A stretch of DNA of 64,000 nt from Tachypleus tridentatus (lineage: Eukaryota; Arthropoda; Merostomata; Xiphosura; Limulidae), in assembly GCF_004210375.1 (NCBI RefSeq), contig NW_027467782.1, positions 28,747,276-28,811,275 of the forward strand, written 5' to 3'. The notes under the pieces were generated by a model. It worked only from the letters and a program-made list of their open reading frames with translations. It did not search any database and had not been told where the DNA came from. Shown here one piece after another: positions 14,253 through 64,000 of this stretch (position 1 is the stretch's first letter; each line of letters begins with the position of its first letter). Position numbers and translations under genes: made by a program.

Positions 14253-14328
14253 TTTTAGGAACGGGTAGGTGAAGTGGCTGGAGAACCCTTCGGTTTACGA
14301 CCACGTCTTTTTTCTTTACTGTCTTTAG

Positions 14329-35010: not shown

Positions 35011-35149
35011 TTAAGTACAATTATACTCATCACTGTTTGATGTTAACTGTCTGAGCAGTTTTAGGACGGTTTCTACCAACTTCTTCTTGTCTCGTTAATT
35101 CTTTTTTAATGCTGAAAATATATTTTTCTTCTTGTCTGCTTCTCTCACC
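35011..35149 (-). pseudogene. EXOC6: Sec15/EXOC6 C-terminal exon with in-frame TAA
   Basis: Minus strand, acceptor ttctttactcccttaag. In the phase-1 frame it reads READKKKNIFSALKKN, stop, RDKKKLVETVLKLLRQLTSN and ends at TAA (35011-35013). From memory this is the C-terminus of Sec15 (KKNNIFAQFRKNDRDKQKLIETVVKQLR in human, shown here only as comparison in part). Sec15 is an exocyst subunit that tethers secretory vesicles and binds Rab11. The internal TAA (35095-35097) stands where family members have Asp or Glu and would remove 27 residues. Conservation past the stop says the loss is recent or an assembly error. Confidence 0.82.
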
Positions 35150-43500: not shown

Positions 43501-43704
43501 TCAAGGTTTAATGTCTTCCATAATGGAACTGTTAATTACATATCTATATACATAATGTATGCCTATGTTACATACGTATACAATATTAATGACTATTCTA
43601 CAGCAACCACATAAAATGTATTTAGTCCAAAAGCAATGTTTACATTACTTGTAATAACTTTTAATATGAACTTAAATAGTAGACTTTGGTAAAGGCTTAC
43701 TAAC
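40554..43704. other. AT-rich non-coding stretch
   Basis: Presumed intron of the Sec15/EXOC6 locus. I looked for the missing WDWSTY exon on the minus strand here and did not find it. The 88-codon minus frame at 40751-41017 is not recognised and has no clear splice sites. Confidence 0.35.
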
Positions 43705-43781
43705 CTGCCTAAGATCAGCAAAGCACATCTGGACTGCACCTTCTTCAAACCCTCTAACAGGTTCTGAATTAGCAAACACTA
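43705..43781 (-). CDS. EXOC6: Sec15/EXOC6 exon near the C-terminus
   Basis: Minus-strand exon of 77 nt, acceptor tttttgtcttcag, donor gttagt: two bases completing a codon plus 25 codons ending phase 0. It reads VFANSEPVRGF and QMCFADLRQ, matching from memory the Sec15 segment ELFASSEPVPGF...LAFIDLRQ. The exon is intact. The next exon, which should carry the conserved WDWSTY...YLRVNP part, was not found in the 8.5 kb before 35149. Upstream exons were not found either. Confidence 0.8.
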
Positions 43782-45090
43782 CTGAAGACAAAAAAGAACT
43801 CAGTTTAGTTTATATCCATTAGTGAATAATTATTATCTGCATTTGTTTTGAACGCCTTAACATAAAATATTTGGATTGCCAACACAATTCAGTTTTATTG
43901 AAGCATAAAATGCTGTTTCGTTTTTGTCTTTGATCTGCTTAAACATAGTCTAGAAAGCCAACCTCCAAATGCAGTGCAGATTGTGTATAAGTTTATCAAA
44001 ATGTGTGGAATAAGATTGACCTCATTTTGTAGAAACTTACAACAATGAAAGAAGTATTTTCAGGCAATAATGCATTATTATGGCCATCAAAACTGAACAT
44101 GATTTACAATGAAATAGTTCCAAGGGCAGCAGGAAGCCTGAAAATTGTTCTTAAAAGATAAATTAACCCTTAAACAAATAATACTGTGTAAAATTATTAA
44201 GTATTCTGATTATTTACACAACTGAAAAATAAATAAGAACAAAACTACAATAAGAATTTCATTAATTAATCAACAACAAAAATAAATCTCTTCACAGAAA
44301 ACTAAATCTCATTAAAAAAAATACAATTCCTAATTGACCTAAAACTTTAAGAAGTTAATTATTCTTGGGTATCTTTGAAATTAGATTTTGATAAAAATGG
44401 TTTTATGTTTCAGATGTGGTTTAAATAAACAGTTTCAATTTTAAGGTAATAACATTAAAGAGTGATGGTCCATAAGGTACAAATTTTCCAAACTCTTAAA
44501 ATTTCTTGATTTGCATATACTGTGTTAACCTTATTTCCCCAGATGTTAAAAGCTTTAAAAAATAACAACAAAAGCACTTTCAATTTTGTCCATAAATCAT
44601 CTATAAAAAGATCATAGCATAATGTGTTTGCTAAATGACCAAATTCCATCTTCAGTCATTGTCTAATTCAGCAGAAATACCTTTGTTGCAATATATGGAA
44701 AATGGTCAAGTAAGGAAACTGTTATTGTATTAAAGTCTATCTTTATACTGAGCTGTTTGTGTCCCAGGAACCACAGTACTTACATTATACATCCATTGTA
44801 TCTCACTCGTATAACAACTGAATAACACAAGCAAAACCAGGTTAATATATGTGATTCATCCTCACTGTCAAGCTGAATTCAGAAAAAGTACACCTTACTT
44901 AAAAAGATGGGACTAAATATTTGTCCACAGAAAACCATCCTTTCCTTTTCACTACTGGCTTACATTATACACTATATCTTATTAGTATGATAAAGCTGAC
45001 TTAAAACTGTAAAATGTTCAAAGTTGCATCACCTACTTCAATCTTTTTTCACATCATCTACCTTTGTATTAAACTCACTGACTCTTTAAT

Positions 45091-45310
45091 ATTTTGGGAT
45101 CTTCTAGAAATTTTTCCCTCCATCCAGGATGTTTTTGTGGCCTCCAAATTAACAAGTTAGGACTGAGAGATGCCTTGGGTCTCTTTTACAACTGGATGAT
45201 ACATCCATATCGAGGCTTACAATATAAAATTGGATATAAGGAGCCTTGTTAATTTGGAGGCCAAGAAAATATACTGGAGAGAGGGAAAAATTTCTAGATG
45301 ATCCCAATTT
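45091..45310. mobile_element. Foldback element with about 65-bp inverted arms
   Basis: Left arm 45091-45156 (core GATCTTCTAGAAATTTTTCC and GGCCTCCAAATTAACAAG) is the reverse complement of right arm 45244-45310 with a few mismatches, around an 87-bp spacer. Total 220 bp, non-coding. No clear target-site duplication seen. Likely a MITE. Confidence 0.75.
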
Positions 45311-45739
45311 TCATGAAAATATAGGTGATTTTCAACAAAATAAGATATTAACCAGGGCAACAGTGAAAGTTATGTTTCCTATACTGAAAATGTATTTCAT
45401 ATAACTAGTCTCATTTAATGCTGCCCTCTATGTGACAAAAATGGAAGAAAAACATGCCACAAGCCTTTTTCCTCCCATCCTTTGGAAATCACTCATTTTA
45501 ATGTCCCTCATGCACATTATCGTGGATAATCCTCTACAAAGGAAAGTGCTATTCACTCATTATACAGGTAACTTCCTCTATTTAGTTCTATCAAATTACT
45601 GTTTTGAGTTTTGGTAGAGAATTGAATCACTCATTTTGAGTGGAGAGGAAGTACATTTTATGTATATAAAAACTAACTTCTAAAATGGTACATCAGCTGT
45701 GCTTATATAATCAGATAGAATCACACACTGAATTGGTGC

Positions 45740-48700
45740 AAGGGAAGAAAAGAAGCACCCTTTGGAAGAGTACAAAGGACACACCTTGAGTCTAAAGAAT
45801 TAGATATGAAGACATGATGTGGGAGACTACACTATTTCTAAACTATCCATACTCTTCACCAATCTCGGAAATGTGTTATATATTCTGGTAGACAAAAACT
45901 GAGAAGTAAATCCAATTAGTATTGGAGAAAAATGGAAGTGTCTCCAGACACAAAGTGGCTAGGGCATGATAAACTGTACTTCACAAGTCAACTACATCCA
46001 AAATCTATGCTGCTGGAAACTGACACAGATAGAGAGGGTGGGTGTAGAATGAGGATCATACCATCTTCACTTAAAATTAATGAGACCAGAAGGGATATCA
46101 AACATCTGACTCCTGAAGAGAGCGTATGTTAAAAACAGAAAATGGTATATCAACTTTGAAAACCTGATGTCCTGGATTGAAAAAATGTATATGAAAGAGA
46201 AATTGACCAGAACCAACCTAAGACAAATAACATCCTCAGAATAAGCTACACAAAAGACAGTTGAAGGGAAAGAACCAGAACAATCCCAAGTTCCTCCACC
46301 ATGCTGTATCATGTAGGACGTAGGCACCTACTGTTTGTAGGCCCTACCAGCCATATAAGTTAATCCAAAAATTAACTTTTAAGGAAAATTTTCATGGACC
46401 TATAGTTTTCATAGGCCCTAGGCACTGTGCCTTATAAATAATTCAGCCCTGCCTCCACAATACAGATAAAGTATAACTGAAGGAGGAAGTCAAACATCCA
46501 TACTACAATGTGCAAAAACTTATGTATTTTGCTTTTACTCTATATCCAAAATCCAGCCAATGGATTTTCATCTGGGACCAGGATGATGAAACCCAACCAA
46601 ACGAGTTAACTGCAATTTGAGGTCTCACTCCTTTGGTCTATATATATGATGTCATCTACACCAGCAGAAAACCACTTCCCTACTCTGCACTGAATTGTAG
46701 ATATTTTATGCCATTAAACAATTCAGGACAATGCCCCACATTCCACTACCACAGTGACTTGGAATTGAAAATTGATAAAGACACCCAGCTCCACTAGAAA
46801 AAAAGGGAGTGTGATACGTGGTGGAAAGTTTGGAAATATGTCAACACCTCAGATAGTGAAATAGGTGACCATGAAACTGTTTTTAAAGTAGACCAAGCTG
46901 ATTTATTCAATATAAGGCATGGCAGGATAGGCAGCTATAACATTCTGTTTTACTCCTGTAGTCCATGATTGGTACAGTCTGGGATGGGTGTATTTGTGAA
47001 GCACTTTTGTTGCAAAGTTAATCCTCAAGCAACCTTGTTGAATGCCCCATCTCAACAGTGTGCACTGAATGGCCATGGAATATATTTAGGTGCGTATACA
47101 TGGCAAAAAAGTGTGGATTTTAAGGTTAAAGAATATTTAATCAGGCAACACTTGCCATGGAGTGTGATCCAAACAGAGAATTACAATGAGAATGGAAATA
47201 AGACCTCTGAAAATGTAGAAAAAGATGAAATATAACTTATCCAGGCTTGTTGTCACATGGAAGTCTAAAGAATAGTCACAGGTGGAAGACAACATCCTGA
47301 AGAGGAAGTAGAAAGCCTATGCAAATAATGAGAGAGAAACATATCACATGTAGTCCATATGCCTAAGAATTTCCTCCGACAGACAATGAAGATGCAATGC
47401 CAGAGAAAAGGTAAAATGCCTAATTTGATGAGAAGACACCTGGAGCAATGTATGGCAGGATAAAGAAACATAGGAATAAACCAACCAAATCAAAAGTTGA
47501 ACCCATATGGTGGAAGGAGAAAAATCACAAACAGAAGATGGTTTCTAAGGGATAAATAGGTGGAAATGGAAATCATGAATGGAAGCTTTGCAATACAACA
47601 ATAAAGAGCACATACAGGACACAGAAGGCCAGGAAATGGAAGGAAGGGAAATTGGAGTAACCATATCTAGCAGCCAAGATTTTAGGAAAGAAAAGAATAA
47701 TCTGGATAAATAAAATATGTTAAATGATAAAGAGTATATGAAACATTAACAGCAAATAAATCAGACTGCCAACATCCATAAGCTAATAAGAGAAAAAACA
47801 CCCACCAAGGGAAGAAACAATTTCATTATAAAACAAAAAAAGGAGACTTAGAAATTGATTGAAAGACTATGACAGATAGCCAGTCTTCAGTTTTAATAAC
47901 AACAAACAGCTGGAATAGAAACTGTGAGAGAGATGATTTCCAGATTCAATGTTCTGTTGGACAGAAGGTCTTGAACTACCTCCGACAGAAGCTGGCTGTT
48001 AATGGGATCCTGAGGAAGAAGGAAAGAAATGGATATCTGTGATAAAAAGAGGAAGGTAAAGGAAGCATAGGACATGCCCAAATAATCCACCAATCTGTGG
48101 TGAAACATTGCCAAAGGGGAAGAAAGTCACACAACTGAGCTCCCATCCAGTTATCAACTGGTACTGTTGATATTATGATGATCTACACTGAAGAAAACAC
48201 CTGGAAAGAGGAACAGGTAAAAGCTGGGAAGCACTAGGATGGGAAACAGAAATAGGGGCTTGTTCTTGATTCCAACTGTGGCAAACGAGCTACCAAAAAC
48301 GAAAGGGTAGAGTGTTGATGCAGGTGTTCCCAGCATGCAATTCCAAAGTGTCTGGAATATGTTTAAAAATATACTAAGAAACAGAGCTACACATGATTCC
48401 CTAAGTGGGCAGCAAATAAGTCTGACAGAAGGCTGCATTTTGACCCAGTATGTTTCAACAACAGAAAAATTATGTATGCAAGGTAAGAGTAGAGAATGAA
48501 AATAGATTCCAACACCTGTGAGTCTTAAAACGGATAGGCTACTTGATGGTTCGTCAAACAAACTATTCACAGCACATAGGAAGCAAGACATGCTGGAACT
48601 CTCAACCAATTATGAAGTAAAATGCTTTGTATGAACCCTAATAACCAAAGAAAGTGGGAAACTGAATAAGGTAAAGAAGAACTAAGAACTATCATACAAC

Positions 48701-48960
48701 AAAAAAGGATGAGGATTGTAGGAAATCATAAAAAAGGATAAAACATCACATACCTGAGGAATCATACCTAAATACGCAATATTAAACCGAGCTGACTCTG
48801 CAGGAGGTGTATAGGGTAACATTAGAAAATTCCTGTGGTGAGAAAATGGTATAAAAATCTTTCTCGGAATGAACAGGTTCAGATTGTTCATGAGGTGAAT
48901 AACTTCAAGAGAAAGTGGCTGACTCACAAAACGATCAGTCTCTCATTGAACAATTGCAGA
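45740..48960. repeat. Unclassified purine-rich interspersed repeat, copy 2
   Basis: Shares collinear blocks with 6131-8290 (see that entry) and extends further on both sides. Frames on the minus strand up to 151 codons (48154-48609) are hydrophobic translations of GA-rich DNA and carry no recognisable domain. A tRNA-like segment sits at its right edge (48975-49055, minus strand). Confidence 0.45.
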
Positions 48961-48974
48961 TAATTCCATTAACA

Positions 48975-49055
48975 GGGTTGCTTGCACCTCCAGGCAAAGT
49001 TACAAAACCGGCACTCTGTGCTCTATCTACCTCACGAGCTTCATAAGCACTCACG
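48975..49055 (-). repeat. Degenerate tRNA-like segment
   Basis: On the minus strand a box A-like stretch (AGCTCGTGAGGTAGATAGAG, with a GCTC/GAGC D-stem) is followed by a possible anticodon arm with TTTTGTAA loop and a box B-like GGAGGTGCAAGCAACC. Stems are imperfect, so it is a tRNA pseudogene or the head of another SINE, not a working tRNA. Confidence 0.35.
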
Positions 49056-49850
49056 AATTTTTCAAAAACAAACATGTACAATATTATATCAACTATACTT
49101 TGCCTTACGATGAAAACGTTTTCTAAACTGATAGAGTGTGATCACAATTAATTATACTTGTGAGAAGACATTGGTAGTAGGCCTGTGATGTTATTAACTC
49201 TACGATTTTTCTATTCAGCCCCCTAGGTATCTTCATGGGAGAAAATAAATAAATTTCTTTGTCTTGTAATTCTGTTCCAACCAGTATCTAAACAGTTTGT
49301 TTATGATGCTTTTATTTTTTAATAATTTAACTCAAATTGGGGAATCTTAAGGGAAGAATAGAAACTTTTTAAATTTCCTATAAAGTCCGAGATCTTGAAA
49401 TATGCATGGAAATAAACCATATTCGAGAGGTAAAAATCATCAAATCTCATAATTTTGATGTTTTATAACTATCATAACAATATCACTTTAGTAATAATCG
49501 GAAAGTACGCGTTGAATGATTTTATTCACTATAATTCAAGCCAATGTTTTGCTGTTGAACTGAATGACTGTCATATATGGGACCTTGTATGATACACTTG
49601 TATCAGACGAAGGACTTTGATTATTGATGAGTGTTTTTGATACATTTATCCATGTTACACAAACATATTCTATGACTAGTCATGTATGTTCTGTAAAGTT
49701 TACATATGTTTATTGTTGAATCTTCTTGTTTTAATCATCTAAATTCCTAAGGTAACTTGCTATTTTACAAATTCTGGTTTTTATGTTATATAGTGTGGTA
49801 TCCAGTTTAATTTTAAATCAAAGTAACCCCTATGATTTTTTTTTTATATT

Positions 49851-50122
49851 GTTTGTTTTGGAATTTCGCACAAAGCTACTCGAGGGCTTTCTCTGCTAGC
49901 CGTCCCTAATCTAGCAGTGTAAGACTGAAGGGAAGGCAGCTAGTCATCACCACCCACCGCCAACTCTTGGGGTACTCTTTTACCAACGAAAAGTGGGATT
50001 GACCGAACATTATAGCGCCCCCACGGCTGGGAGGGCGAGCATGTCTGGCGCGACTCGGGCGCGAACCCACGATCCTCAGATTACGAAGCGCACAGCTTAA
50101 CGCGCTAGGCCATGCCAGGCCC
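49851..50122 (-). mobile_element. tRNA-derived SINE, full length
   Basis: Same family as 18771-19033, minus strand. TTTTATATT flanks it at 49842-49850 and 50123-50131. It lies 350 bp upstream of the duplicated 5' region of the Ig membrane-protein gene. Confidence 0.88.
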
Positions 50123-50473
50123 TTTTATATTGTTACTTGTAAGAGAGTCACGTTTAGATATAACTGTAATATTAATATATTAATTTGTTTTCTTTTTGTA
50201 CGATTTTGTAAATAATATGACTTGTATTTTGTGCGCATTTATTTTAATTCTCCACTATCTGCAGTTAAAATTCTATATTGTTTAGTAGTGGCCATTTGTT
50301 GCTGTTATACGTTTTTCGGCACTCTTCCAGACTGCAACATCACCTGTGAATTGCAAGATAAAAGTGTGGTTTGAGCCTTTCAGAGGCTTGTTTTTAAGTT
50401 ATGTAATTTACCTGCCAGGCGAGTTGTTTGAACTATTTTCACAACAATAACTGTGATTATTTAGCAAGTATTA

Positions 50474-51021
50474 TTGTGAAACAACAATACCTTATTTTGA
50501 AATAAAAATAACGTAAACATTAGGTTTTTTCACACATTTTTGAATTTGTATATTTTAAATTCAAATCAAAGCTGTTTAAAAATGGAATTGTGGTTTCTGT
50601 AGCCTCATCATAAATTTCACACCTTTTAGTTTCTGTACTTTGTCAGTTTTTAGCGTTTAATCCGTAACTTTTATCAGCTTTTAGTGTTTAATCCGGAACT
50701 CCGTAACTTTTATGATATATTGTTTGTGGTGTTTCTTTGTTGCCTCTAAGCATGTTGTGAAACAACAATATCTTATTTTGTAATAAAAATAACGTAAACA
50801 TTAGATTTATTTTCACACATTTTTGAATTTGTATATTTTAAATTCAAATCAAAGCTGTTTAAAAATGGAACTGTGGTTTCTGTAGCCTCATCATAAATTT
50901 TACAACTTTTAGTTTCTGTACTTTGTCAGCTTTTAGCGTTTAATTCGTAACTCCGTAACTTTTATCAGCTTTTAGTGTTTAATCCGTAACTCCGTAACTT
51001 ATATGACATATTGTTTGTGGT
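50474..51021. repeat. Direct tandem duplication upstream of the Ig gene
   Basis: Copy 1 (50474-50730) and copy 2 (50755-51021) are nearly identical over about 260 bp, separated by 24 bp. They differ by scattered substitutions and a small indel in the T-rich part. Each also holds an internal repeat of the motif GTTTAATCCGTAACT. The second copy ends about 120 bp before the start codon of the Ig membrane-protein gene, so the duplication covers its likely promoter or 5' UTR. Confidence 0.85.
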
Positions 51022-51143
51022 TCTTACGTCATTACAATATTTATAATATTAACAATGAAACAGTATCTTAGCAACACAGATAATTAGGAGACATTTTGTA
51101 AAACGTTTAACATACTACTGCAAGCAAACTTTAAGATATAGAG

Positions 51144-51510
51144 ATGGTGAAGTTCTTTTTCAAAACATCGCTTTTTATGGCATTATATGCTGTAATAATA
51201 GCAGTGCCTGGGCACATAAAACTTAAAACTGAAAATATTATACTTGGCGCCCCACAGGTGATTCCATGTGTACCTGATAACTATAAGATCAAATGTTATA
51301 CCTTTGATGTTTTCAGGTATTATTGGTTTGGCCCATACGGTGTAATAGCAACAGATGACGAGAAAATTCGCGTAAACAAAGCCACGGGTGATTTGATGAT
51401 TGATAAATTTGATATTTCTGATGCCGGTGCTTATAAGTGCATTATTGAATACTCAAGAAACTGGGAGATAAAAGCACACAGACCAATTTCCATCACTCAT
51501 TTCTTAGAAG
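51144..51510 (+). CDS. Ig-domain membrane protein, exon 1 (signal peptide + Ig domain)
   Basis: First coding exon of a six-exon gene (coding parts 51144-51510, 53026-53091, 53283-53336, 54706-54781, 55660-55873, 58477-58794; 1095 nt, 364 residues). Residues 1-23 form a hydrophobic signal peptide. An Ig-like domain follows: Cys42 and Cys51 in the B-strand area, Trp61 in the C strand, and the F-strand signature Asp93-x-Gly95-x-Tyr97-x-Cys99. The stretch from Trp61 (WFGPYGVIATDDE) resembles, from memory, sperm-surface Ig proteins (TMEM81, ZPBP); this is inference. The exon ends at a GT donor (gtaaat) after one base of a codon (phase 1), matching the next exon. The ATG is the first in frame before the signal peptide. 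The product should be a type I cell-surface protein. It is not recognised as any named arthropod gene. Confidence 0.75.
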
Positions 51511-51826
51511 GTAAATGCCTATAAGAATCGATTTTGGTAGTGTTTAGAAGTTAAAAAAAAAACACTTTATATTATGAATCGGATTCCATCCATTTTTACT
51601 ACAATTTATGTAAAGTGTTATAAGTTCGATATATATTTAATGATTGTACATTAATTTTCCAAAATCCATGAAATCACCTTTCCAACTACCCACATACAGC
51701 TCACCGCCATTGTTTCCGCGTTAAACCTGAGGTGTTAAAACGTTGAAAATCAAACTTGTCTGGATATAAATTTATCATTACGAAATAATTTTTGGTTTAT
51801 TATTATTATATACAATAACTAAATAC

Positions 51827-51848
51827 ATATATATATATATATATATAT
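51827..51848. repeat. AT dinucleotide microsatellite
   Basis: About eleven AT units in intron 1 of the Ig membrane-protein gene. Confidence 0.9.
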
Positions 51849-52460
51849 GAATAAATGTAATCAATAGCATTACACAATTAATGAAATTAGACATTCCGTG
51901 AAGTCAGAAAACGAGATAACCTTATGTTAGAAATTAGAAAGGTTTTGTTGTTTTCTTTACAAGTCATAGAACAAATAATTTAAAAAATCAAAAGTGTTGA
52001 ATGATTTCTTTAATCGTCTGTGAAAATATTGAAATTGCAAAATGCTACGGTGTTATAGCAGAAAAATGTTTCTTTTGTTACAAACACACAGCCAAGTTCT
52101 GGTATTCAGAGACATTGTTCAGCCACTTTTCACATCCAACGATGAAACAATACATTCTTATCATTTGAAATAAGAAAGTTTGAAGAGCTTATTTGATTAA
52201 CTATATCTGTTACTGAGCATATCTTTAATTCTGATCTGGGTAGACATCTTCATTTGTTGGAAGTTAATATTAAACACGTCACATATTAATGAAAAAAAAT
52301 TCAAGAATAAATACAGCACTGCGTGTTGTTTATTCGCTATTCCGTAAAGCAGAAAACACGCATGATTTCGTAAATAATTTTAATTTTTTTAGTTTATGTT
52401 CTCTCTCACGCTTCACTTTATTGTTCCGTCAGTCATGTTATATATATTTTTAATTACGAT

Positions 52461-52726
52461 TGTTTGTTTTTGAATTCCGCGCAAAACTTCACAAGGCTAT
52501 CTGCGCTAGCCGTCCCTAAGTTAGCAGTGTAAGACGAGAGGGAAGGCAGCTAGTCATCACCACACACCGCCAACTCTTGGGCTACTCTTTTAGCAACGAA
52601 TAGTAGGATTGACCGTCACGTTATAGCACGGCTGAAAGGGCGAGCATGTTTGGTGTGATGGGGATTCGAACATGCGACCCTCAGATTACGAGTCGAATGC
52701 CTTTACACATCTGGCCATGCCGGGCC
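52461..52726 (-). mobile_element. tRNA-derived SINE in intron 1 of the Ig gene
   Basis: Minus strand, with the 9-bp duplication TTTAATTAC at 52449-52457 and 52727-52735. The body lacks the CGCCCCC stretch. The head has a good box B region (GGGGATTCGAACATG on the plus strand), belonging to a second subfamily shared with 56969-57192. Confidence 0.87.
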
Positions 52727-52735
52727 TTTAATTAC

Positions 52736-52835
52736 CAAAATTTGCGTTTTTCATATAGCAAAGCTTCAAAGAGATATCCGCTGTACCTACCGAGGGGAAA
52801 TCGAACCCTCAACTTTAGCATTGTAAATACTTATT
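52736..52835 (-). repeat. Second tRNA-like repeat family, copy
   Basis: Immediately right of the SINE. Contains GAGGGGAAATCGAACCCTC, a box B-like motif, next to TTTAGCATTGTAAATA. Related short degenerate copies lie at about 55430-55530 (GGGGAACTGAACCC) and 63516-63590 (GGGGAATTTATCCC). Confidence 0.5.
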
Positions 52836-53025
52836 TATTATTAATTATGAAAATACATTGATTTGAAACTTCCTGTGACTTACGATACAGTAGATAAAGA
52901 ACAAGATAAGCCATCAACTATATTTGTTAGATTTTGTTTATACCTTACAGGATTTCCAATGTATGACATATTATTTCTTATGTCAACAATACTTGAACTA
53001 CGAACTATCTTATACTTTATTTTAG

Positions 53026-53091
53026 CATGCGTACAACCTAGTGAAAACCACCAATGTCCTGAAGGATTCACACTGAGAAATAACATGTGTT
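53026..53091 (+). CDS. Ig-domain membrane protein, exon 2 (short Cys-rich stalk)
   Basis: A 66-nt exon between a tttattttag acceptor and a gtaagt donor, phase 1 on both sides. It encodes residues 123-144 with three cysteines (124, 133, 144) around a CPEGF motif, giving a short Cys-rich segment between Ig domain and membrane. No ATG begins it, so an ORF search from ATG sees it only as part of a longer chance frame. ZPBP-type proteins also carry a Cys-rich part after the Ig domain, but theirs is much longer. Confidence 0.7.
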
Positions 53092-53282
53092 GTAAGTTGT
53101 GCTTTCCTTTAAAGCGTTTATATGTGTGATCAGTATTTGTGAATTCTAATTTTTAAATAAATCGAAAAAGGAAAAACTGTTTTGAACAAACTAAGCAGTA
53201 AATTAGTTATTATATACTTCATCCATTATTTTATTTTAATTGCCAAAGTTAACATTGTTTATATTTCAAACTTTTTTCTTAG

Positions 53283-53336
53283 ATCCAAGTCAAACAGAAA
53301 CGGAGGAAGAAACATACGTTCCTTCTCCAAAGAAAA
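53283..53336 (+). CDS. Ig-domain membrane protein, exon 3 (acidic linker)
   Basis: A 54-nt exon, phase 1 to phase 1, with a cttttttcttag acceptor and a gtaagt donor. It encodes residues 145-162, a Glu/Thr-rich linker ending in Pro-Lys-Lys, placed just before the membrane span. It keeps the frame of exons 2 and 4 exactly, which is the main reason to accept so small an exon. Confidence 0.65.
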
Positions 53337-54201
53337 GTAAGTTATGCTACATATAAAATTACGTAAAACGTACCTTTAACGTGAGACAATATGTGTGGAA
53401 AGGTTGGTGACAAAATGTCGTGATGTAAAAATATTACTGTGACGATGTTTGTGTTGACGCGTGTTGTTCTTTCTTCCCATTAAATTTCTTCAATCCCTTA
53501 TTCATGAAGGTTAAAAATGTAGTAAGGTGTGAAGACCCGATCTCTTATAATATTCCAGTGCATTGTGGACATTATTTTCTATTCTAAATTATAAATATCT
53601 TACCATTTCACCACTCATAGTAACTTAGGTAAAACATGATTCACCAAACTACGTCTATCATTCCCACTAATTCACTGTTCACAGTTTGGGCTTTTCTGTT
53701 GTCTGAAGTAAGTTTTTGGACCAGTAATTGTATGCCATAAGTATTTTTCTCCTCCTAGTATTGTTGTATTATTTAAACCTTGACTATTTTATAAAAACTG
53801 GTTGTCTAGAGCAGAGTTTTAGATTTGTTTACAACAAAACAACCGTCCATGCACTTTCGCTTCGAATTGTTACCGATAGTTTTCCAATATATTCTCTTTC
53901 GTTTGTAGTTCATTTACACACTAATTACAGATTTCTTTGAATAGAGAAACATATAAACAGTATTCAGTTTACAAATTGCTAGTAAGTCAGTGTCAACAAT
54001 CATACATCCTTGGAAGTCTGAGAACTCGTCACTTTTGCATTGTTACGAATATATATATATGCTGTAATGGTGGTCAGTCATGTGACGCATCAAATGATTA
54101 TCCTAAATATACAGTCAGTGTATTTGGTTCTCATAAGATATGATAAGTTAATATCTTTACTTGGATTATCAAGGAAGAAAGTAAATCTAAAGTGATACTT
54201 T

Positions 54202-54467
54202 GTTTTGAATTTCGCACAAAGCTACTCGAGGGCTATCTGTGCTAGCCGTCCCTAATTTTGCAGTGTAAGACTAGAGGGAAGGCAGCTAGTCATCACCACC
54301 CACCGCCAACTCTTGGGCTACTCCTTTACCAACGAATAGTGCGATTGACCGTAACATTATACGCCCCCACGGCTGGGAGGGCGAGCATGTTTGTCGCGAC
54401 TCGGGCGCGAACCCGCGACCCTCAGTTTACGAAGCGCACGCCTTAACGCGCTAGGCCATGCCAGGCC
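54202..54467 (-). mobile_element. tRNA-derived SINE in intron 3 of the Ig gene
   Basis: Minus strand, flanked by the perfect 15-bp duplication CTAAAGTGATACTTT (54187-54201 and 54468-54482), the longest and cleanest in the window, so probably the youngest copy. Confidence 0.92.
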
Positions 54468-54705
54468 CTAAAGTGATACTTTACACTTCTTTACCCGTAC
54501 TGTTTGTTTCATATGCATTAAACTTATACGTGTTTGAATAAAGAGTGGAACTTCTTCGATTCCAGTAACTTAGAACGCTGTGGTTATCTTGTTATTTTCA
54601 CTGTAAGTATACCAAATGAAACGTAGCCTCCTCCAATACTATCATATAACAAAAACAAATTGCACTAAACTAACTTTCTTTTTAACTTGTATTTTTCCAT
54701 TTCAG

Positions 54706-54781
54706 CACCATCCATGTTAGAATATCCGATTCCATTGGTAACTGCTGCAGTAGGAGTACCACTATTGTTCATTTCTTTAAG
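54706..54781 (+). CDS. Ig-domain membrane protein, exon 4 (membrane helix, GC donor)
   Basis: A 76-nt exon after a strong polypyrimidine acceptor (tttttccatttcag). It encodes residues 163-187, including most of a hydrophobic helix (about residues 171-192, completed by the next exon). No GT donor fits; the only junction that joins in frame to the next exon is AAG|GCAAGA, a GC donor of the accepted AG|GCAAG type, leaving phase 2 (the AG of an AGT serine codon). If this GC-AG intron is right, the transmembrane helix continues without a break. Confidence 0.6.
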
Positions 54782-55659
54782 GCAAGAACAAAACAGTATT
54801 TTTTTATGTTTTGTTGAATAGATCTTAATATAATTTCTATGTTATTAATAGTTGAACCATGTGTGTATATACTTAATAATGAATTTATAGGGGCTGAGAA
54901 ATAAAAAAAATGTTAGTTACTTTATTTTAATTAGAATGATAAATAATCAAAAGGTTACAAACGCTTGCATTGATAAGAAATATGTAAGGAGAAATTAGCA
55001 TCATTAGTTTACAATAAAGTGTATTTTAAGTGTGGAGATTCACTTAAAGCTTAAATTGTGGATCACTTTTTACAATATTACAAGTTCTTCTGATGAAAAA
55101 CATTCCTTGTAAGTATGTTATTGTTCAACCTGTTTTTTATATGTAAATACAATAAGGTACTGTGCGTGTCAGTAGAAATACTTGAAATTGAAACGTGTAA
55201 AATATGGGTAACCTAAACTATTACAATTCGAGTACTTGAGATAAATATAAAAGGCATTTTCATTCAAAAAAGTTCTTTAACTAATTAATGATTTTCAGTT
55301 TATTTCAATATGGTCTTAAAATTGAAATTTATCAGCAAGTATAATAATTATTAAATTATCCCTCATAAGCCATAACATTTTATTCCTGTTTACATTTGTT
55401 AACTTTATTTTAAAGAGATGCAGCAGGGGACTACTTGTCATGTCCACCGTGGGGAACTGAACCCGCCTATTTTAGTGTTATATGTTCATATACTTACTGA
55501 CGTTCCACTGGGAGAGAACGTATCTGTGGCTGTCGTTGTTAAATGTTATTATTTCTAGATTATAATTATATTCCATTTTTAATTGACATAACACTAATGT
55601 ACAAATAAGAGTCAAATTAAATCATCTATGTTATTTATTCGCGCTTTTTTTTTTTGTAG

Positions 55660-55873
55660 TGTCATTATTTGGAAGTGCAATTGTTGTGGATGTGAAGCAG
55701 TAAAATCAGTGAACATAGAAGACCATGCGAATAAAGATGACAGAACAAAAATTAAATATTCACTTGTACCACAAAAAGATGAAGATCAGACTGTTATTAG
55801 AAACGAGAAGAGAAAATGTAAAAGTGTAAAAGAGAAGCGGGCCAAAAAAGTTCAGAATTTTCATCTTCCTAAA
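55660..55873 (+). CDS. Ig-domain membrane protein, exon 5 (end of helix, basic tail)
   Basis: A 214-nt exon after a long T-run acceptor ending tgtag. Its first base completes the split serine codon, then Val-Ile-Ile-Trp ends the membrane helix. A juxtamembrane cysteine cluster (Cys194, 196, 197, 199) could be palmitoylated. The rest is a hydrophilic Lys/Arg-rich cytoplasmic segment (residues 200-259). The donor is gtaagt in phase 0. The ATG-to-stop frame over this region (55628-55981) runs through the donor and is not the real boundary. Confidence 0.65.
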
Positions 55874-56968
55874 GTAAGTATTGTGATAACGGGAAATGTC
55901 ATCACATTTCATGCCGAGTGTCTGGGACTTACAATGTTAGAAACCGGCTACCGACAGTTGTGGTGGGTAGAGCACAAATAAACGAACATAACAAGAATGT
56001 AATGTACCTTCAGTCACATATGTTTACTCACTTTCTATACATTTTTATGCTGGTGTTCTGCGTGAAGTTTAGACACCGTTATAAATATAATGTATTAAGG
56101 CTATAAACTTTACACTATAATCTTCCACCTTCTAAGAAACGTTTAAATTTAATGGTATCGATTTTTAGAAGGAAATTGCAGTCGGTTTAAATGGATACTT
56201 GATAACAAGCTTCTAGAGACGTTGTGTGTAGATATATACATGTAATACAGGTTTCTTCTTTATCATTGCAGCCATCTCAAAACATTTTGGAAATTGTTGT
56301 ACTCTATTGACTCTGTTTATGAGTCATGTGTTTTCACAGTTATTGCGCTATTAACACAGTTACGGATGAATCTTGACTTGTTATAGGAATACAACAACTT
56401 TATGCCATGTCGCTTAGCAACAAAAGTATAACCTGATATTCTTATTAATCTATGTACTCAAAGTATAAAGTGAAATGTATGAACAACAAAATTGTAAAAG
56501 TTACATATTTTCTACTGTATTAACATTTGGGAAGATATATGAAAGATGCTTCTAATATGGCCATTTTAAAACGGTTCCGCTTGGATAGAAGCTGTTTCAA
56601 ATTATAGTTCTAAGCCCGCTACGGGGAAAGGAAGGCGTTTTATCAGTATTTTATCTCATGGTTTTTATTGATCTGGTGACATATAAGGGAGACAATTCTT
56701 CATGTCGTTAGATGACTTTTCATTAATTTTGAATTTACGTAAATTCCGTCCAGGGGACTAGTACTTGCGCTAGTATATAATAACATTTTCTTCATCACCA
56801 TTCAAGCCGTCTCCAAACCTTTAATAAATGTTTATTCTATAGATTTGTACTGTATGACTCTGTTTATGAGTCATTACCTCGTAAAGTTGGGTTGTACTTA
56901 TTCCATTTAGTAGTAGAGAGACATATATACGTATGATGTATAATGTGAGGACTTCCATCCTTCATATA

Positions 56969-57192
56969 CTACAATTGCTAATTTGGTAGTGTAAGACTAG
57001 AGTGAAGACAGTTAGTCATCACCACCCACCGCCAACTCTTGAGCTATTCTTTTGCCAACGAATAGTGGGATTGACCGTCACATTATAATGCTCCCAGAGC
57101 TGAAAGGGCGAGCATGTTCGGTGTGACGGGGATTCGAACCCACGACCTTCGGATTACGAGCCGAGCGTCTTAACCACCTGGCCATGCCCGGA
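56969..57192 (-). mobile_element. tRNA-derived SINE, 3'-truncated, in intron 5 of the Ig gene
   Basis: Minus strand; the head at the right end has the best tRNA likeness (box A TGGCCAGGTGGTTAAGACG, box B GGTTCGAATCC on the minus strand). The body stops at AATTTGGTAGTGTAAG, so the last 45 bp and tail are missing. No clear flanking duplication. Confidence 0.85.
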
Positions 57193-57487
57193 CATTTATA
57201 TTTGCTTATTTTCTTTTGCTGTTTAACAACCCGGCATTAGCCAAATTTTCTTTGCTTGGATAAGTGTAGAACTTTGATGTATCTTATCTGATGTTCAAAC
57301 ACCCCTTTCGTCATGCCAAAATTTTAAACAGCAGAAATTCTCTAACAAGTTGACATTTATGCTAGCTAGAAACTTTCTAATTAAAAATACTGGACTCATT
57401 TACGCACCACATAGAGTTTAAAAATGTATTTTATTTTACTTTTTATGAAGCATCATTATTATCGTGTTTGTATTCTTCTTGCGTTTT

Positions 57488-57751
57488 GGCCCGGCATGGC
57501 CTAGTTCGTAATCGATATTGACTGTAATTTCGCGGCGCCCCGCGTCGCGTTAAACATGCTCGCCCTCAGCCGTTAAAATATTATAATGTGACGGTCAATC
57601 ACCTATTCGTTGGTAAATAGCCCAAGAGTTGGCGGTGGGTGGTGATGACTAGCTGCCTTCCCTCTAGTCTTACACTGCTAAATTAGGGACGGGTAGCACA
57701 GATAGCCCTCGAGTAGCTTTGTGCGAAATTCCCAAACAAACAAACAAACAA
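57488..57751 (+). mobile_element. tRNA-derived SINE with mosaic head, intron 5 of the Ig gene
   Basis: Plus strand, with a CAAACAAACAAACAAACA tail and the 11-bp duplication TCTTGCGTTTT (57477-57487 and 57752-57762). After the first 15 bases (GGCCCGGCATGGCCT) the head does not match the family for about 36 bases but resembles the right-hand flank at 57763-57796. Confidence 0.85.
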
Positions 57752-58476
57752 TCTTGCGTTTTAGTTCAAATCGATATTGACGAATTTCGCAGCGCCATCT
57801 CGATGTTAAGCTGCTTCCAAACAAATATTAAATATTCGAATTTTAAATACAAAGGCACCTATAGATTAAGGACATCTGGTGCAGCCCAGTAATACGACCG
57901 AATACTCCGACTCTAATAGTCTGGTATTAATGCTCTTGGTGAGCAGACACAGATAGTCCGTTTTGAAGTTTTCTAAAAAAACAACGTAGAGTGAAATTCT
58001 CGATAATTGCAGCAACTAAATTAAAATATACATCACGCAATTTATCATTCTCAAAAGTATAGTTGTTAGTACCAACGTTTTTTATTTCAATTTCTTTTTC
58101 AGTTTGATTATTTTTGAAATTCTCACATTTCTAATAACGCTTGTTAGTAATTGTTTACATTTTATTCTGTTTAGTGCTAGAAAAATATGATACTTTCTAC
58201 AGAGTGTTTCCCCAAAGTAAAGTTGTAAATATTTCGATATGCATAAGATAAACATTCCCTTCCCTTTTTACTTATTAGAAATCAATTTATAGAGTCAATT
58301 AGTTTGCTCAAAATTTGGATATTTCAATAAAAGTGTTGTTCGGAAACGTATTTTAATTGAGATCCACTAAACTGATATAGCCCAGTTATCGGTAGTTTCA
58401 TTATATTAATTTCCAAGAGGTAATTTCTATATAATGATAACTAACATCAACCTATCCTGATTCTTGTTATTTTTAG

Positions 58477-58794
58477 AGAGAAAGAAAGGCGAATGTTTTT
58501 ACCAACAGGAAGGACATCAAAAATAGTAATGTCTCAAATGAAATAACAAACATTATCACGAGTCTTGAAGGATCACATGCAAAATATTTTATACCAACAC
58601 AGCCTCATAAATATCAACCAATAATATCATATATATCAGAAACTCTGTTAACTGAAAGGAAGGAGGTACCTTCACATTGTAGACGTAACAAAAAATTTAA
58701 GAAATATAAATCAAAGAGACCTCTTTACTTCAAAGAACTGCGAGATTTGTTTCATGAAAGGAAATCATCAGAGTCAGAGTGTTCCGACGACTAG
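58477..58794 (+). CDS. Ig-domain membrane protein, exon 6 (C-terminal cytoplasmic tail)
   Basis: After the acceptor ttgttatttttag the frame set by exon 5 (phase 0) stays open for 105 codons to TAG at 58792. There is no ATG at its start, so it is only found by following splice phase. It encodes residues 260-364: a basic cytoplasmic tail, Lys/Arg-rich near residues 330-345, ending in an acidic Ser/Glu/Asp cluster. Total coding length is divisible by three across all six exons. Intron 5 (2.6 kb) holds two SINE copies. The same frame reopens after three close stops, see findings. Confidence 0.65.
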   Translation, partial: RERKANVFTNRKDIKNSNVSNEITNIITSLEGSHAKYFIPTQPHKYQPIISYISETLLTERKEVPSHCRRNKKFKKYKSKRPLYFKELRDLFHERKSSESECSDD

Positions 58795-59013
58795 AGTAGA
58801 AAGAAAAATTGAGAAAAGTAAGCCCCTGAAACATATTTAGATCTACAAGAATTTTTTGACAAGTGTTTAACTGAATTAGAAAGCCAGATGCAAGACAACA
58901 ACAGAATAACTTCTATGATCGGACGATTTTCTTCACTAATAAGAGACAGTGGAACTCGATTTATGTTTTCTTGTCCCGAATTTTCACAAACTTCACATCG
59001 ATAAAAAAATTAA

Positions 59014-59041
59014 AATAAAATGTATGTAAATAGAAAATAAA
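59014..59041 (+). promoter_or_regulatory. Two AATAAA polyadenylation signals
   Basis: AATAAA occurs at 59014-59019 and again at 59036-59041, about 220-250 nt past the TAG of exon 6 at 58792. They are the likely 3' end of the Ig membrane-protein transcript. In AT-rich DNA such hexamers are common, so position is the main support. Confidence 0.45.
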
Positions 59042-59270
59042 AGTTATAGAGTATTTAAAATTGTCTGTTTTATCGCGTTAAAATACATGTTTGTTTCAAA
59101 GAAAATGATTATTTATTACAGAGGCTTTATAAATTATAACTTCACTGTAGACACACAAGTTGGGGAAAAATGATTTCAAATTAGTAATTAATATTTTTGG
59201 ATATACAAAACTGTTTAGTTTAAGAGTTATTATTCAATTTATTTGGTGAGTTAATATTTATTGATTTAAA

Positions 59271-59354
59271 AAAGTGATTATTTAAGTTTGGTTGTATAAC
59301 GTGGCAAACAAACAAACATTCCACGTTATACAAACAAACTTAAATAATCACTTT
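59271..59354. repeat. Long hairpin, 34-bp arms
   Basis: 59271-59304 and 59321-59354 are reverse complements with one mismatch, around a 16-nt loop that reads CAAACAAACAAACATT. It sits 24 bp from the rearranged SINE. Confidence 0.92.
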
Positions 59355-59377
59355 CAACACTCTTGCTATGATTTTTT

Positions 59378-59627
59378 GATAGCCCTCGAGTAGCTTTGTG
59401 CTAGCCGTCCCTAATTTAGTAGTGTAAGACGAGAGGGAAGGCAGCTAGTCATCACCACCCACCGCCAATTTTTAGGCTACTCTTTTACCAACGAATAGTG
59501 GGATTGACCGCACATTATAACGCCCCCACGGCTGAAAGGGCGAGCATGTTTGGCGCGACGGGGATGCGAACCCGCGACCCTCAGATTACGTATCGCACGC
59601 CTCAACACGCTTGGCCATGCCGGGCCC
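59378..59627 (-). mobile_element. tRNA-derived SINE with inverted 3' end
   Basis: Minus strand; the head is at the right (CCATGCCGGGCCC). At the left, the 23 bases that should read CACAAAGCTACTCGAGGGC plus TATC are present as their reverse complement (59378-59400), joined to the normal CTAGCCGTCCC body. The tail is absent here, but tail-like CAAACAAACAAAC lies in the loop of the adjacent hairpin at 59305-59320. Confidence 0.82.
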
Positions 59628-62028
59628 AACGTTGTAAGAGTCATACATAGTGTGAGTCAATTATTGACGCCAAGTTACTCGATTCTTCTGTATTTTTGAT
59701 GTTTCCTCAAGTTTGTATTGTTACACTCAAACGTCACTGCGTAGTTTACAGATAGTTTGAGGCCTCAATGAACAATTGATAAATATATGGGCTACCAACC
59801 AACTGTGAGCTAGATTGAGAAAAATTGTTCTTTTCTCAGAAAATTAGTCAATGAGAGAAAACGTGAAGTTAGCTGGTGTGAGAACAATTAACCATATCGA
59901 GCGATATGATAAAGTTAGTTTCAAAGTTTAATAAATATAATAATTTGTATTGTAAAAGGGGGATCTATATTAATTGAACCATTCTCTGTGGATTTTGATG
60001 AGAAGTAGACATTTTTTTAAAGTTATGACACAACTGTTGTAACCCATGTTGTAACTCAGTAAGTTACTGAGTGAATAATTTACTAATAGTACTGTGAGTA
60101 AAAGTAAGTACTGTGAGAAAAATAGTTTATATTGTCAATTATATTCTTAAGTAATTGAATCAGCCCAAATGGATATTTGAAAATAAACATTAATTATTTA
60201 GAGTTTTGGATACAACTGTGATATTTCATGGTGTAAATAATTTTTGTACATACGTTTGTCTTGTTTTGAAGAGATTATTATTTAAAACAAAAACTGGTAG
60301 TTGACTAAAAACAGGAGTTTACCAAAGGTTACATGGGGTGAACAGACAAATGGGTAAAGAAATGTTATATTTGTTATAAAATATGTAACGTTGCGAAAGA
60401 ACGGAAGTCCATTACCAACAAGCAACAGCAGAAATCTCAGTATGAAGCTGCTATAGCAACTTCTATAGATGGTGTTGTTAAGAAACTAGAAAGTTTGACT
60501 GTCAGCATAGATGCTTGGATTTAGGTAATGTTTAAAAATATTTTCTCATAAAAATAACTATATAAATTTGCAATACAAGTAGAATAGTTAACGTCCATTG
60601 AAACTCCTATTATTGTTTAAATTGTTATTGAAAACATATAATTATTATAAATACCGAAACTTAATATATCTTTTATGATTTTGGAGTTAAAGTTTCTTTC
60701 TTCCGATACTGTGAAAGAATAACACAATTGTTCAATTAATGAATTTATAATGGAAATTGAACCTTTAACAGAATTGTGGAGAACAATGTAGTAACGTCAA
60801 TTGTTGGTCCATTCTTTACTTGTACAACATAACTTGACCATTCTAACCACTTACTGTTGTATATACTTACAAAAAAAAAATCACTTGACCCTTCCAACCC
60901 TTTCCGTTGTTTCAATTAACAATAACGTTTTCTACCTAGAAAATGAGAACCAAACGACAGAAAGATTAAAGGTAAACAAAACCATAACGCTATCTTCAAA
61001 CCTATTTCTAATAATAGAACAATAATTTAAGTGGACAAAGTCAAATCCCCCTAGTGACCCAGTGTCATGTCTGCTGAATTAAAACGATGGAATCCAGGTT
61101 TCAAAAGTCAAATAAAACTTAAATGAACGTCGTAGTTGTAATTGGCATAAAATAATGATACATTAAATATATTTTTATTCATAAATACTTTGAGTTAGTA
61201 ATTGACCATTGTCGAGAAACTTTGTAGTTAAGCACAAAACTACACAACGTGTTCTGACCATTACATGTATCGAAACCTGATTTTTAGCGTTGTAATGCAG
61301 ACATACCACTGTGCTGCTAGGGAATGTGTCGAAAAACATGTAACTTTTTTTATATGCACACAGTGAAACTATTAATCACTTTTCCTCATATTTGTTGATG
61401 TTTGAAGTATATGATTACTTTTCGATGCTAAATGTATACAATTATTATAGTTTCAATGTTGATGATACAATAGAACTACAGTTCTTTTCAAATCAGACCG
61501 TTGATTCCTTGCACCATTCGTTACATTAATTAAACGAGTTAAACTGTATTAAGTTTGAGAGCTTGCAACAATCAAATCAATTAATGAATCGACGCATTGA
61601 GGCAGCAAGGTAGCTATAGAAGTAATCAAGATAAAGGAGACATTTGATTGGTGCGTTAAGGTCTTTGTGAATCATGACAGAATCTTAGAGTTCCACGGTG
61701 AGAGTGAATATTTTATACTAGTTATAAAAACACACAAAAATGAAATATTTGTTTTTGCTAGTCAAGGTCTTCGTATTATTTGCACCAATAGCAACACATT
61801 AATGACACTTAGTGAAAGGTTTAAATTGCTCACACTCGGTGATGAAGTGAGTAATTATCTGGTCTTGTGGAAACCAGTCTCTCACGTGAGGTTCTAAAAG
61901 TAGTAAATGCTTAGAACTGAATCATGTAATAATGCCAACTGGTTTTGTTGCACTTGGTTGCACAAGGTACAAGAATGACCTTTAAGAATAATGTGGCTGC
62001 TGCACGTAACACAATCATATTCCTGTTA
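59628..62028. other. Mostly featureless AT-rich stretch
   Basis: Intergenic or intronic. Contains the candidate exon at 60346-60524 and a 76-codon plus frame at 61667-61897 (contains SERFKLLTLGDEVSNYLVLW) which reads protein-like but was not recognised and has no splice sites I trust. Confidence 0.35.
60346..60524 (+). other. Candidate exon, Cys-rich then Lys/Gln-rich
   Basis: After a possible acceptor (ggtgaacag) a frame reads WVKKCYICYKICNVAKERKS and continues open, with KQQQKSQYEAAIATSIDGVV, to TAG at 60522-60524, directly before a GT donor-like site (gtaatg). Composition is protein-like. Not recognised; an ATG-based search misses it. Confidence 0.3.
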
Positions 62029-63359
62029 CACCCTTGTGCAAATTAATTGAAAGAAATGGTCATTTTACAATATTTTCAGCATGGCGGCCGGTGTTGGCTC
62101 GATGGACCCGCTGATTTCCTTTAATACTCATTTTTTCACACAGACGGCGTAATTAGCTATGTTTTGCAGTACGGTCGATCTATTTTGGGATATATGACGA
62201 AATTTTGAGGAATATTACGCCATTCGAAATTGCGTTAGACTTTCTTCAAAAATGAGGCTATTTGTTTTGCTGCTAATTAGTCGTTTTTAACCGTCATACA
62301 CAATGGATGTGACTCCTAGAAAGCGTACAAAGATTGTGACACTGCACTAGTACACCGGCATGACTTACAAGGAAATCGTGGACGTTGTTGGTGTTAGCCT
62401 ATCGACAGTCAGCGCTGTATTCCAGGCCAAGGTGTGTACCGGATCTATCAGTCCGAAACGTAAAGAAAGATGTGGCTGAAAAAGGAAAACAACGCCAAGA
62501 GACGACGCGTACGTGGTAAGGGAGTGTGTGAAAGATTAAGGGAAAATAAGTGACGCCATAAAAGAGATTTTGAGGTCAAAGGAATAAAAATCAGCTCTTC
62601 AACGGTTCGTCGTAAGCTTCTTGATGTCGGTCGAAGGGCACCAGTCAAAAAACAACTTCTTATCAACTCAATGACAAAACAACGGTATCAATGGGGTCTG
62701 AAATATAAGAACTACACGCAAGAAACGTGGAGGAAGGTGTTATTCAGTGACGAGACTCATTTCTTCGTACAGGGTCAAAGAAGTCTGCATGTTCGCAGAT
62801 CTCCAGATGAGAAACTTCGAGAATCTCACATCAATCAGTTCGTAAAACATCCCTTCTACATATCGTAGAAGGTATAACGCGAGAACCACAGTACGTCGAA
62901 GTTTTGCAGAAAATAGTCGTTCCAGAATTGAAAGAGAGATTTCCTGATTGATTTGGCATTTTTCAGCAAGATCTGGCTCCGTGCCACACATCGAAACTTG
63001 TGAAGAATTTTATGACTACAACGCGAATAAAGGTGCTGGACTGGCCTGTAAACTCTACGGACTTAAATCCTATTGAAGATCTTTGGGCGATTTGTAACGA
63101 AAGACTTCGAGCAAAAGACTGTACTACGCAAGATAAGCTAATTGAGGCCATAACTGAGGTGTGGTACCGCGATCCAAAATTAGCAAAGATTGTAGTCAAC
63201 TCGTGGACTCGATACCAAAGCGGATTAATGATCTGCTGAAACATAAAGGCGGTCAAATCATGTATTAATTTGTAATTTTTGGATTCTCAGAAATAAAACG
63301 CAAAAAAATTGAAAAAATCGTAATTTTCCGTCTTGTTTCAATTAATTTGCACAAGAGTG
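62029..63359 (+). mobile_element. Tc1-type DNA transposon, full length, TA target site
   Basis: Terminal inverted repeats of about 25 bp (CACCCTTGTGCAAATTAATT at the left; CACTCTTGTGCAAATTAATT as the reverse complement of the right end) bound 1331 bp, with TA on both sides (62027-62028, 63360-63361), as Tc1/mariner elements insert. It contains one transposase gene, now broken. Confidence 0.92.
62303..63268 (+). pseudogene. Tc1 transposase (DD34E), broken
   Basis: Starts MDVTPRKRTKIVTLH and meets TAG at 62348. An N-terminal helix-turn-helix part follows (MTYKEIVDVVGVSLSTVSAV), then the catalytic domain: first Asp in VLFSDETHFF (about 62740), second Asp in FQQDLAPCHTS (about 62970), and Glu in STDLNPIEDLW 34 residues later, the DD34E spacing of the Tc1 group. 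The C-terminus RINDLLKHKGGQIMY is in another frame after a shift near 63195. With one early stop, later stops (62866, 62949) and shifts, it is dead, though its inverted repeats could still be moved in trans. Confidence 0.9.
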
Positions 63360-63361
63360 TA

Positions 63362-64000
63362 CATACGTGCAATGTGCAGTCAAGTCCTGGCCTTCTAGTT
63401 GACCGAAAACCCATATAAAGGTAAGTCATTGTGACTGACGTCAATACAAACATACACGAATGTAATACAAGTATTTTCTTTCGGAGAATGAAATTGTCAT
63501 GAATATTTGGTTATCTGCTGTCTCTACTGAGGGGAATTTATCCCCTGATTTTAGAAATTTAACCTAAAGATATACTGCTGTGTCATCGCAGGACATCATG
63601 AATATTAATACTAGAACCACAAGAGATTCGAGAACAGGAATAATTTTTGATACAGATCAAACAATCCTACCTAAAACAATAGCCCACAGTTATTACTATA
63701 TATATTTAGGCTCGTACTGAAATATAGCATTAATATATAAACTTTTGTTAATTTGTGAACAACTTGAAATTTAATAACCGTTATATTTTACAATTTTACT
63801 GTAAATCAGGATCGGTAGTTAACTGATACGAAAATAAACTTTTGTTGTAAACTGTGAATGTTGCCTCATTTTAACACATTAATTACATATTTATCATCAA
63901 CACATATTTCCGAAACTGTAATTATATATAGCAGCCTGTAGCCTATAGTAGCCTGCTTGTTTTATGAAAAATGTGATTATTTGGACAGAATCATGCATTA
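63362..64000. other. Right edge, non-coding
   Basis: AT-rich; only a degenerate tRNA-like scrap at 63516-63590 (GAGGGGAATTTATCCCC) was seen. Confidence 0.4.

Follow-up and report, generated by a model that had tools for sequence, protein, structure and literature searches.

Background

What is the six-exon gene that occupies positions 51144..58794 of a 64,000-nucleotide stretch of horseshoe crab DNA, and what might its product do? The stretch, hereafter the window, is C19:28747276-28811275 of the 2.17-Gb, 205-contig assembly of Tachypleus tridentatus, in which a coagulogen sequence matches C11 at 9.02 Mb with 88-94% identity, as befits a horseshoe crab. A first-pass annotation made from its letters had read the gene as encoding a single-immunoglobulin (Ig) type I membrane protein recalling TMEM81 and ZPBP, proteins of the sperm surface or acrosome. 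Here we establish the anatomy of this gene, a lower bound on its copy number, its kin in the same genome and the codon-level constraint on it. The gene belongs to a large family of close copies spread over many chromosomes, the ZPBP profile is the one that suits its Ig domain best, and a role on sperm is the most likely one for the family.

Horseshoe crabs fertilize their eggs externally and have a classic acrosome reaction, and the family would provide testable candidates for gamete recognition in such an animal. The presence in a chelicerate of a family that scores over the cut-off of the ZPBP profile, and whose kin genes bear a Cys-rich second domain, would also help to date the ZPBP group to before the split of arthropods and vertebrates. 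For Izumo1 and Spaca6, conservation is reported in vertebrates only (PMC8762341), and TMEM81 has been described as a conserved protein of vertebrates (PMC11052572). No account of ZPBP-like genes in horseshoe crabs was found among the partial listings of the open-access literature searched.

Anatomy of the gene and its protein

The six exons lie on the plus strand of the window, have matching phases and, once joined, give 364 codons followed by a stop. Exon 1 (51144..51510), defined by frame joining and by Pfam, carries a hydrophobic start, residues 1-22, which hydropathy marks as a putative signal peptide, and the entire Ig domain, matched by the Pfam family Sp38. The Ig cysteine pair would be C42-C99, with W61 as the Ig tryptophan and the whole domain confined to exon 1; no cysteine lies N-terminal of C42. 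Exon 2 (53026..53091) is a cysteine mini-exon, NHQCPEGFTLRNNMC, and exon 3 (53283..53336) an acidic stalk. The three-Cys stretch of the protein consists of C124, C133 and C144. The membrane helix starts in exon 4 (54706..54781) and ends in exon 5 (55660..55873), which continues through a Cys cluster into the beginning of a basic tail, and exon 6 (58477..58794) supplies the rest of this cytoplasmic tail and the stop. Exons 3 to 6 follow from frame joining and comparison of copies, together with hydropathy in the case of exon 4. The peak hydrophobic 19-residue stretch begins at residue 173 with a mean of 2.5, placing the helix at about residues 173-191, and the C-terminal 173 residues hold 41 K/R against 24 D/E. 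The layout proposed by the first-pass annotation (hydrophobic start, one Ig domain, three-Cys stalk, helix, Cys cluster and a basic tail of about 170 residues) is therefore upheld, as are its 364-codon model and its placing of a single-Ig type I membrane protein in a chelicerate, with the topology read from hydropathy; what it missed is that the gene belongs to a multicopy family with dozens of copies.

Because all splice sites are kept, and exons 1, 2, 3 and 6 are constant in length, in 8/8 copies (the window copy and seven fetched ones), and because omega = 1 fits exons 1 and 6 worse (see below), comparison of the copies confirms that the six-exon gene is real and not a chance arrangement of open frames. 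The donor of exon 4 is of the GC kind (AAG|GCAAGA) in the window copy and in L039, L040 and L042, and has GT at the same position in the other 4/7 fetched copies (L041, L043, L044 and L047). We rejected a longer frame beyond the stop (58822-59004, 60 codons, just 5' of a poly(A) signal), which has an in-frame TAG in all three of the copies compared.

A large family of close copies

When exon 1 was compared as protein with its own genome, 149 matching stretches were obtained (best 150 of 185 candidates scored), of which 88 were kept, at 63-100% identity. Of the 61 rows dropped, 37 stand at 30-34% identity; the others are second pieces of decayed copies and short fragments, some of the latter with 64-83% identity. 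All 122 codons are spanned without a stop in 53/88 kept Ig exons. The same search with exon 6 (best 150 of 254 candidates scored) returned 142 stretches; 111 were kept and 31, mostly fragments of decayed copies, were dropped, and 7/111 kept tail exons end before residue 104. Both counts are lower bounds. A tail exon lies downstream on the same strand for 74/88 Ig exons, at 2.4-13.3 kb, the distance being 6.3-9.8 kb in 70/74.

The 88 kept Ig exons are distributed over 12 contigs; they cluster on C7, C11 and C12, and C19 also carries many of them. Loci L010-L028 form one subfamily with 90-96% protein identity to the window copy, and most other kept copies stand at 74-83%. For one tail exon (L046), no recognisable Ig exon was found in the 8.8 kb fetched upstream. 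Short-spaced copies or fragments of the tail exon, without a kept paired Ig exon, were also seen on C8 at 45.44-45.46 Mb and 50.5-50.7 Mb.

Identity of the Ig domain

Sp38, the Pfam model of the N-terminal Ig domain of ZPBP, matches the whole protein at 26.1 bits and exon 1 at 28.5 bits, over a curated cut-off of 23.1, and three further copies of the family score 27.8-29.6 bits, while the generic I-set score of the window protein falls under its own cut-off. A piece of ZPBP gave 169.5 bits with the same model, and no Sp38 match was returned for three contactin pieces or for human TMEM81. Searching the genome with the Sp38 profile gave 36 listed matches, 34 of them to this family and two (L004, L005) to a related gene on C6; the list comes from the best 150 of 175 candidates scored and is a strict one (E <=0.001, i.e. 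>=29.7 bits), such that the window exon itself, at 28.5 bits, falls below its line and other Ig genes may match more weakly.

At the level of profiles, then, the first-pass link to ZPBP is supported, and that to TMEM81 is not, TMEM81 having no Sp38 match. No Izumo-Ig Pfam match was obtained for the window gene, that model giving sub-threshold matches with TMEM81 and with the C6 gene. The Ig domain best fits ZPBP as judged from the profile, and the family's membership of the ZPBP group would extend as far as that fit. Like ZPBP and ZPBP2, which combine PF07354 (Sp38) with PF20626 (EGF_Sp38_C), kin genes in the horseshoe crab couple the Ig domain with a Cys-rich exon; the window protein differs in having a membrane helix and a long basic tail and in lacking a match to EGF_Sp38_C. 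ZPBP is an acrosomal protein without a long basic tail. IZUMO1 and SPACA6 are also Ig-bearing type I proteins of sperm, but with only about 30 residues between its start and the Ig domain the window protein has no room for their four-helix bundle. Contactins and other I-set proteins share the C-to-F strand motif, the best single stretch reaching about 18 bits among the four PDB alignments shown; they differ in being multi-Ig, and three of their pieces lack a Sp38 match. An ordinary I-set or contactin identity was provisionally set aside on these grounds, the total PDB score of 44 bits being a sum over several contactin domains, though contactin still tops the single-sequence comparison given below.

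Related genes in the same genome

Two relatives suggest how the gene may have been assembled. The gene on C6 (L004, L054) has an Ig exon that scores 31.2 bits with Sp38 and ends in the same phase as exon 1 of the window gene, then a mini-exon, GCPQGSEENDGKCC, and then an exon matching Ephrin_rec_like at 41.8 bits in the frame scan and 48.8 bits alone. It is the best candidate for a ZPBP-like ancestor gene. Loci L004, L005 and L054 lie at 1.45 and 3.53 Mb of C6, where two copies of the Ig exon were seen. The second relative, family B, of which one member (L045) was examined, has an Ig exon with 31% identity (938-1336 of that locus) scoring 16.1 bits with Sp38, below the cut-off, a mini-exon at about 3206, ICPYGYMLGKSDCC, found by motif only, and an Ephrin_rec_like exon of 36.1 bits at 4532-4711. 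Family B is itself multicopy, being among the 37 rows at 30-34% identity, and some of its copies lie 47-106 kb from copies of the window family (family A).

The phase after the Ig exon is common to all three genes (FLEG|GT in the window gene, HIEG|GT in the C6 gene, YLKG|GT in family B), and the mini-exon of the window gene, QCPEGFTLRNNMC, is of the CPxG...C kind seen in the other two. The introns of the window gene, scanned in their plus-strand frames, gave no Ephrin_rec_like exon. We infer from these shared parts one ancestral layout for the three, from which the window family would have lost the Cys exon.

Constraint, divergence and decay

Codon-level constraint was estimated as omega, the ratio of replacement to silent rates. 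For exon 1, in the 27 distinct intact sequences among 36 aligned loci (best matches, not a random sample), omega is 0.488 (log likelihood, lnL, -1307.06, against -1314.66 at omega 1), and without the first 22 codons it is 0.477 (lnL -1064.43 against -1070.99). For exon 6, in eight copies, it is 0.38 (lnL -774.10 against -781.34, with kappa fixed too). Omega 1 thus fits worse by 7.6 log units in exon 1 and 7.2 in exon 6, and these fits show the two exons as constrained at the codon level among the copies aligned. The tail exon agrees: 105/111 kept copies are free of a stop within the match, against 0.54-0.79 in neutral simulation. Positive selection in the form of omega above 1 was not found, the values being 0.38-0.49.

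Between the two subfamilies, differences fixed in exon 1 number 17 replacement to 3 silent, against 59 to 46 among variable ones (p 0.023; 20 and 13 sequences, L001, L003 and L007 left out), a borderline excess of replacements. In a comparison of window positions 51144-58794 with L039-L044 and L047, the subfamilies differ by 12.1% in exon 1, 10.7% in exon 4, 8.8% in exon 6 and 8.3% in exon 5, by 7.0 and 6.0% in exons 2 and 3, and by 4.1-6.7% in the introns; fixed changes, counted without the upstream and 3' untranslated segments, amount to 39/1080 in exons and 36/2462 in introns (p 0.0001). The corresponding values from 35 loci are 10.8% for exon 1, 8.4% for the upstream stretch and 4.0% for the beginning of intron 1. 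Silent sites join in the exon excess, with a silent distance of about 0.21 in exon 1, and one possibility is that introns have been homogenised with the exons kept apart. Within the subfamilies, over the same 35 loci, 2.2% of the bases of exon 1 vary in one and 4.8% in the other, and changes in exon 1 are spread nearly evenly over codon positions.

Possible decay is also seen in the eight whole copies. The reading frame is not kept through exon 5 in 5/8 (L039, L041, L042, L044 and L047), several times at runs of A; exon 4 is short by one base in 2/8 (L043 and L044); and exon 6 has a stop in one, L040. Such lesions could reflect genuine decay, variants with a short tail or errors in the assembly.

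The amplified unit

The matches reach far outside the gene. Window pieces at 42.6-43.7, 46.6-47.7, 59.05-60.25 and 62.9-64.0 kb, with 40 candidates scored for each, are found again next to many of the same copies of the gene, and also at some places without a kept gene copy; the last piece overlaps in part a Tc1-like transposase remnant. The part of the unit inside the window covers 25792..64000; as far as sampled, its identity to the fetched copies is mostly 89-98%, interrupted by insertions and gaps. Fetched flanks match back to window position 25.8 kb for a copy on C12 (94-97%), to 29.8 kb for the copy at 27.6 Mb of C19 (89-94%) and to 38.2 kb for one on C11 (93-95%), all with gaps and insertions. 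The C19 copy at 27.6 Mb runs on for 5 kb beyond the window end at 98.4% identity and therefore shares about 39 kb (sampled), or about 43 kb when all copies are taken together. On its right side the match enters a tandem array of about 53 bp. The unit length of about 40 kb or more is a lower bound on the left side and comes from sampled pieces, no single copy having been read through. Among the 28 loci compared, identity between copies on C11, C12 and C19 reaches 99.8% over 3.4 kb, equal to that seen within a single contig. The amplification between chromosomes of so long a unit carrying a spliced gene is unusual in itself.

The unit may be either a mobile element or a segmental duplication. 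Mobile genes were sought by six-frame Pfam search of 46201-51082 and 59011-63892, in the plus-strand intron frames and in nine open reading frames (ORFs), with selected ORFs for 25.8-46.2 kb; within that scope, viral or transposon genes amounted to a Tc1-like DDE_3 piece, a LINE (long interspersed element) endonuclease (13.5-14.3 kb) and weak sub-threshold matches. The Tc1-like transposase, at 62575-63141, is decayed and spread over frames (DDE_3, 43 bits). Apart from the six-exon gene, none was recognised in the unit, of which 25.8-46.2 kb was covered by sampling.

Origin and likely role of the family

With a probability of roughly 0.55, we interpret the window gene as one member of a large family of single-Ig type I membrane proteins that was amplified recently and descends from a ZPBP-like ancestor, the protein most likely being on sperm with its Ig domain extracellular. 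The ancestor would probably have combined an Ig exon like that of ZPBP (Sp38) with a CPxG-CC mini-exon and a Cys exon of the ephrin-receptor-like kind; in the window family the last is absent and a membrane helix and basic tail are present. The Ig domain, outside the cell, could bind a partner on another cell or on the egg coat, and amplification together with divergence of the subfamilies would reflect reproductive conflict or dosage. A bolder version, in which a ZPBP-like fertilization gene became a family of about a hundred membrane-anchored copies hopping between chromosomes in a giant unit of about 40 kb or more, its Ig subfamilies under positive selection, as an arthropod sperm-egg conflict carried on a mobile segment, strikes us as quite doubtful.

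Several results weigh against the sperm interpretation. In a comparison of a four-sequence family profile with single sequences, a contactin control scored 95.2%, ZPBP 91.8% and TMEM81 88.4%; pairwise similarity does not discriminate ZPBP from a contactin-type Ig here, and the sperm-family assignment therefore rests on the curated Pfam Sp38 model. The second Pfam domain of ZPBP, EGF_Sp38_C, was not found in the whole protein, in exons 2-3 or in the plus-strand intron frames; a human ZPBP C-terminus gave 98.4 bits with this model. The replacement excess, counted by codons, is 14 to 3 with p 0.060, and the test uses paralogues from the best-scoring loci, among which gene conversion could bias it. 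The frame is open from end to end in 1/8 whole copies, that of the window, the other 7/8 having a frameshift or stop in exons 4-6. Stops occur in 20/88 kept Ig exons, such that many copies may be dead; the 68/88 without one do no better than neutral simulation (0.53-0.87); and the dropping of decayed pieces inflates the intact fractions of kept copies.

These lesions, with the far-reaching matches, the near-identity of copies on different chromosomes and the near-even spread of exon 1 changes over codon positions, are what one would expect if the copies were mostly dead passengers, carried around the genome by a unit, either a repeat or a segmental duplication, that is at least some 40 kb long, with a few functional and most decaying. 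We regard this as possible but somewhat unlikely, given the omega values under 1 for exons 1 and 6, splice sites kept in every copy compared and an intact fraction of tail exons above the neutral range, a fraction that the earlier dropping of more decayed pieces has, however, raised. The large copy number, the possible replacement excess between subfamilies and the type I topology would also suit a family of innate-immune receptors, in which single-Ig receptors were amplified for recognition and the tail signals; a tail tyrosine site, IKYSLV, resembles by eye an immunoreceptor tyrosine-based inhibitory motif, a pattern that is easily fitted by chance. Exon 1 is nearly uniform within the subfamilies, unlike a diverse recognition repertoire, and the top Pfam profile is that of a sperm family, which makes an immune role unlikely. 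As for the TMEM81 of the first-pass annotation, it too is a type I membrane protein with a single Ig domain, and a GVI-TDDE-like stretch after the Ig tryptophan is common to the window protein and human TMEM81. A disulfide-bonded sheet precedes the Ig domain of TMEM81 (PMC11052572); in the window protein the Ig follows the hydrophobic start with no such sheet, the tail is long, profile support is absent and the comparison score lies under that of the contactin control. On this anatomy and the absent profile match we ruled out TMEM81 orthology, which, with TMEM81 described as a protein conserved in vertebrates, is highly improbable.

Other features of the window

A direct repeat of about 280 bp (50474..51021, plus strand) lies immediately 5' of exon 1, perhaps in the promoter region. 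Further upstream, the minus strand at 13503-15494 holds the ORF of the LINE-type endonuclease (Exo_endo_phos_2, 63 bits) and a neighbouring ORF; the latter has no Pfam match over cut-off and is, we presume from its look, gag-like. A tandem array on the minus strand occupies 24438-25904, its unit in one frame being LVSYIFYKIFTNTIRILFSIGCQ, and a minus-strand ORF at 26715-27074 has a weak sub-threshold match to the Cys-rich region of EHMT1/2 (17.8 bits). A dispersed repeat recurs at 49849-50124, 52460-52729, 54199-54467, 56957-57194 and 59362-59628, several times within introns of the gene, and we take it to be a tRNA-like short interspersed element (SINE) of horseshoe crabs.

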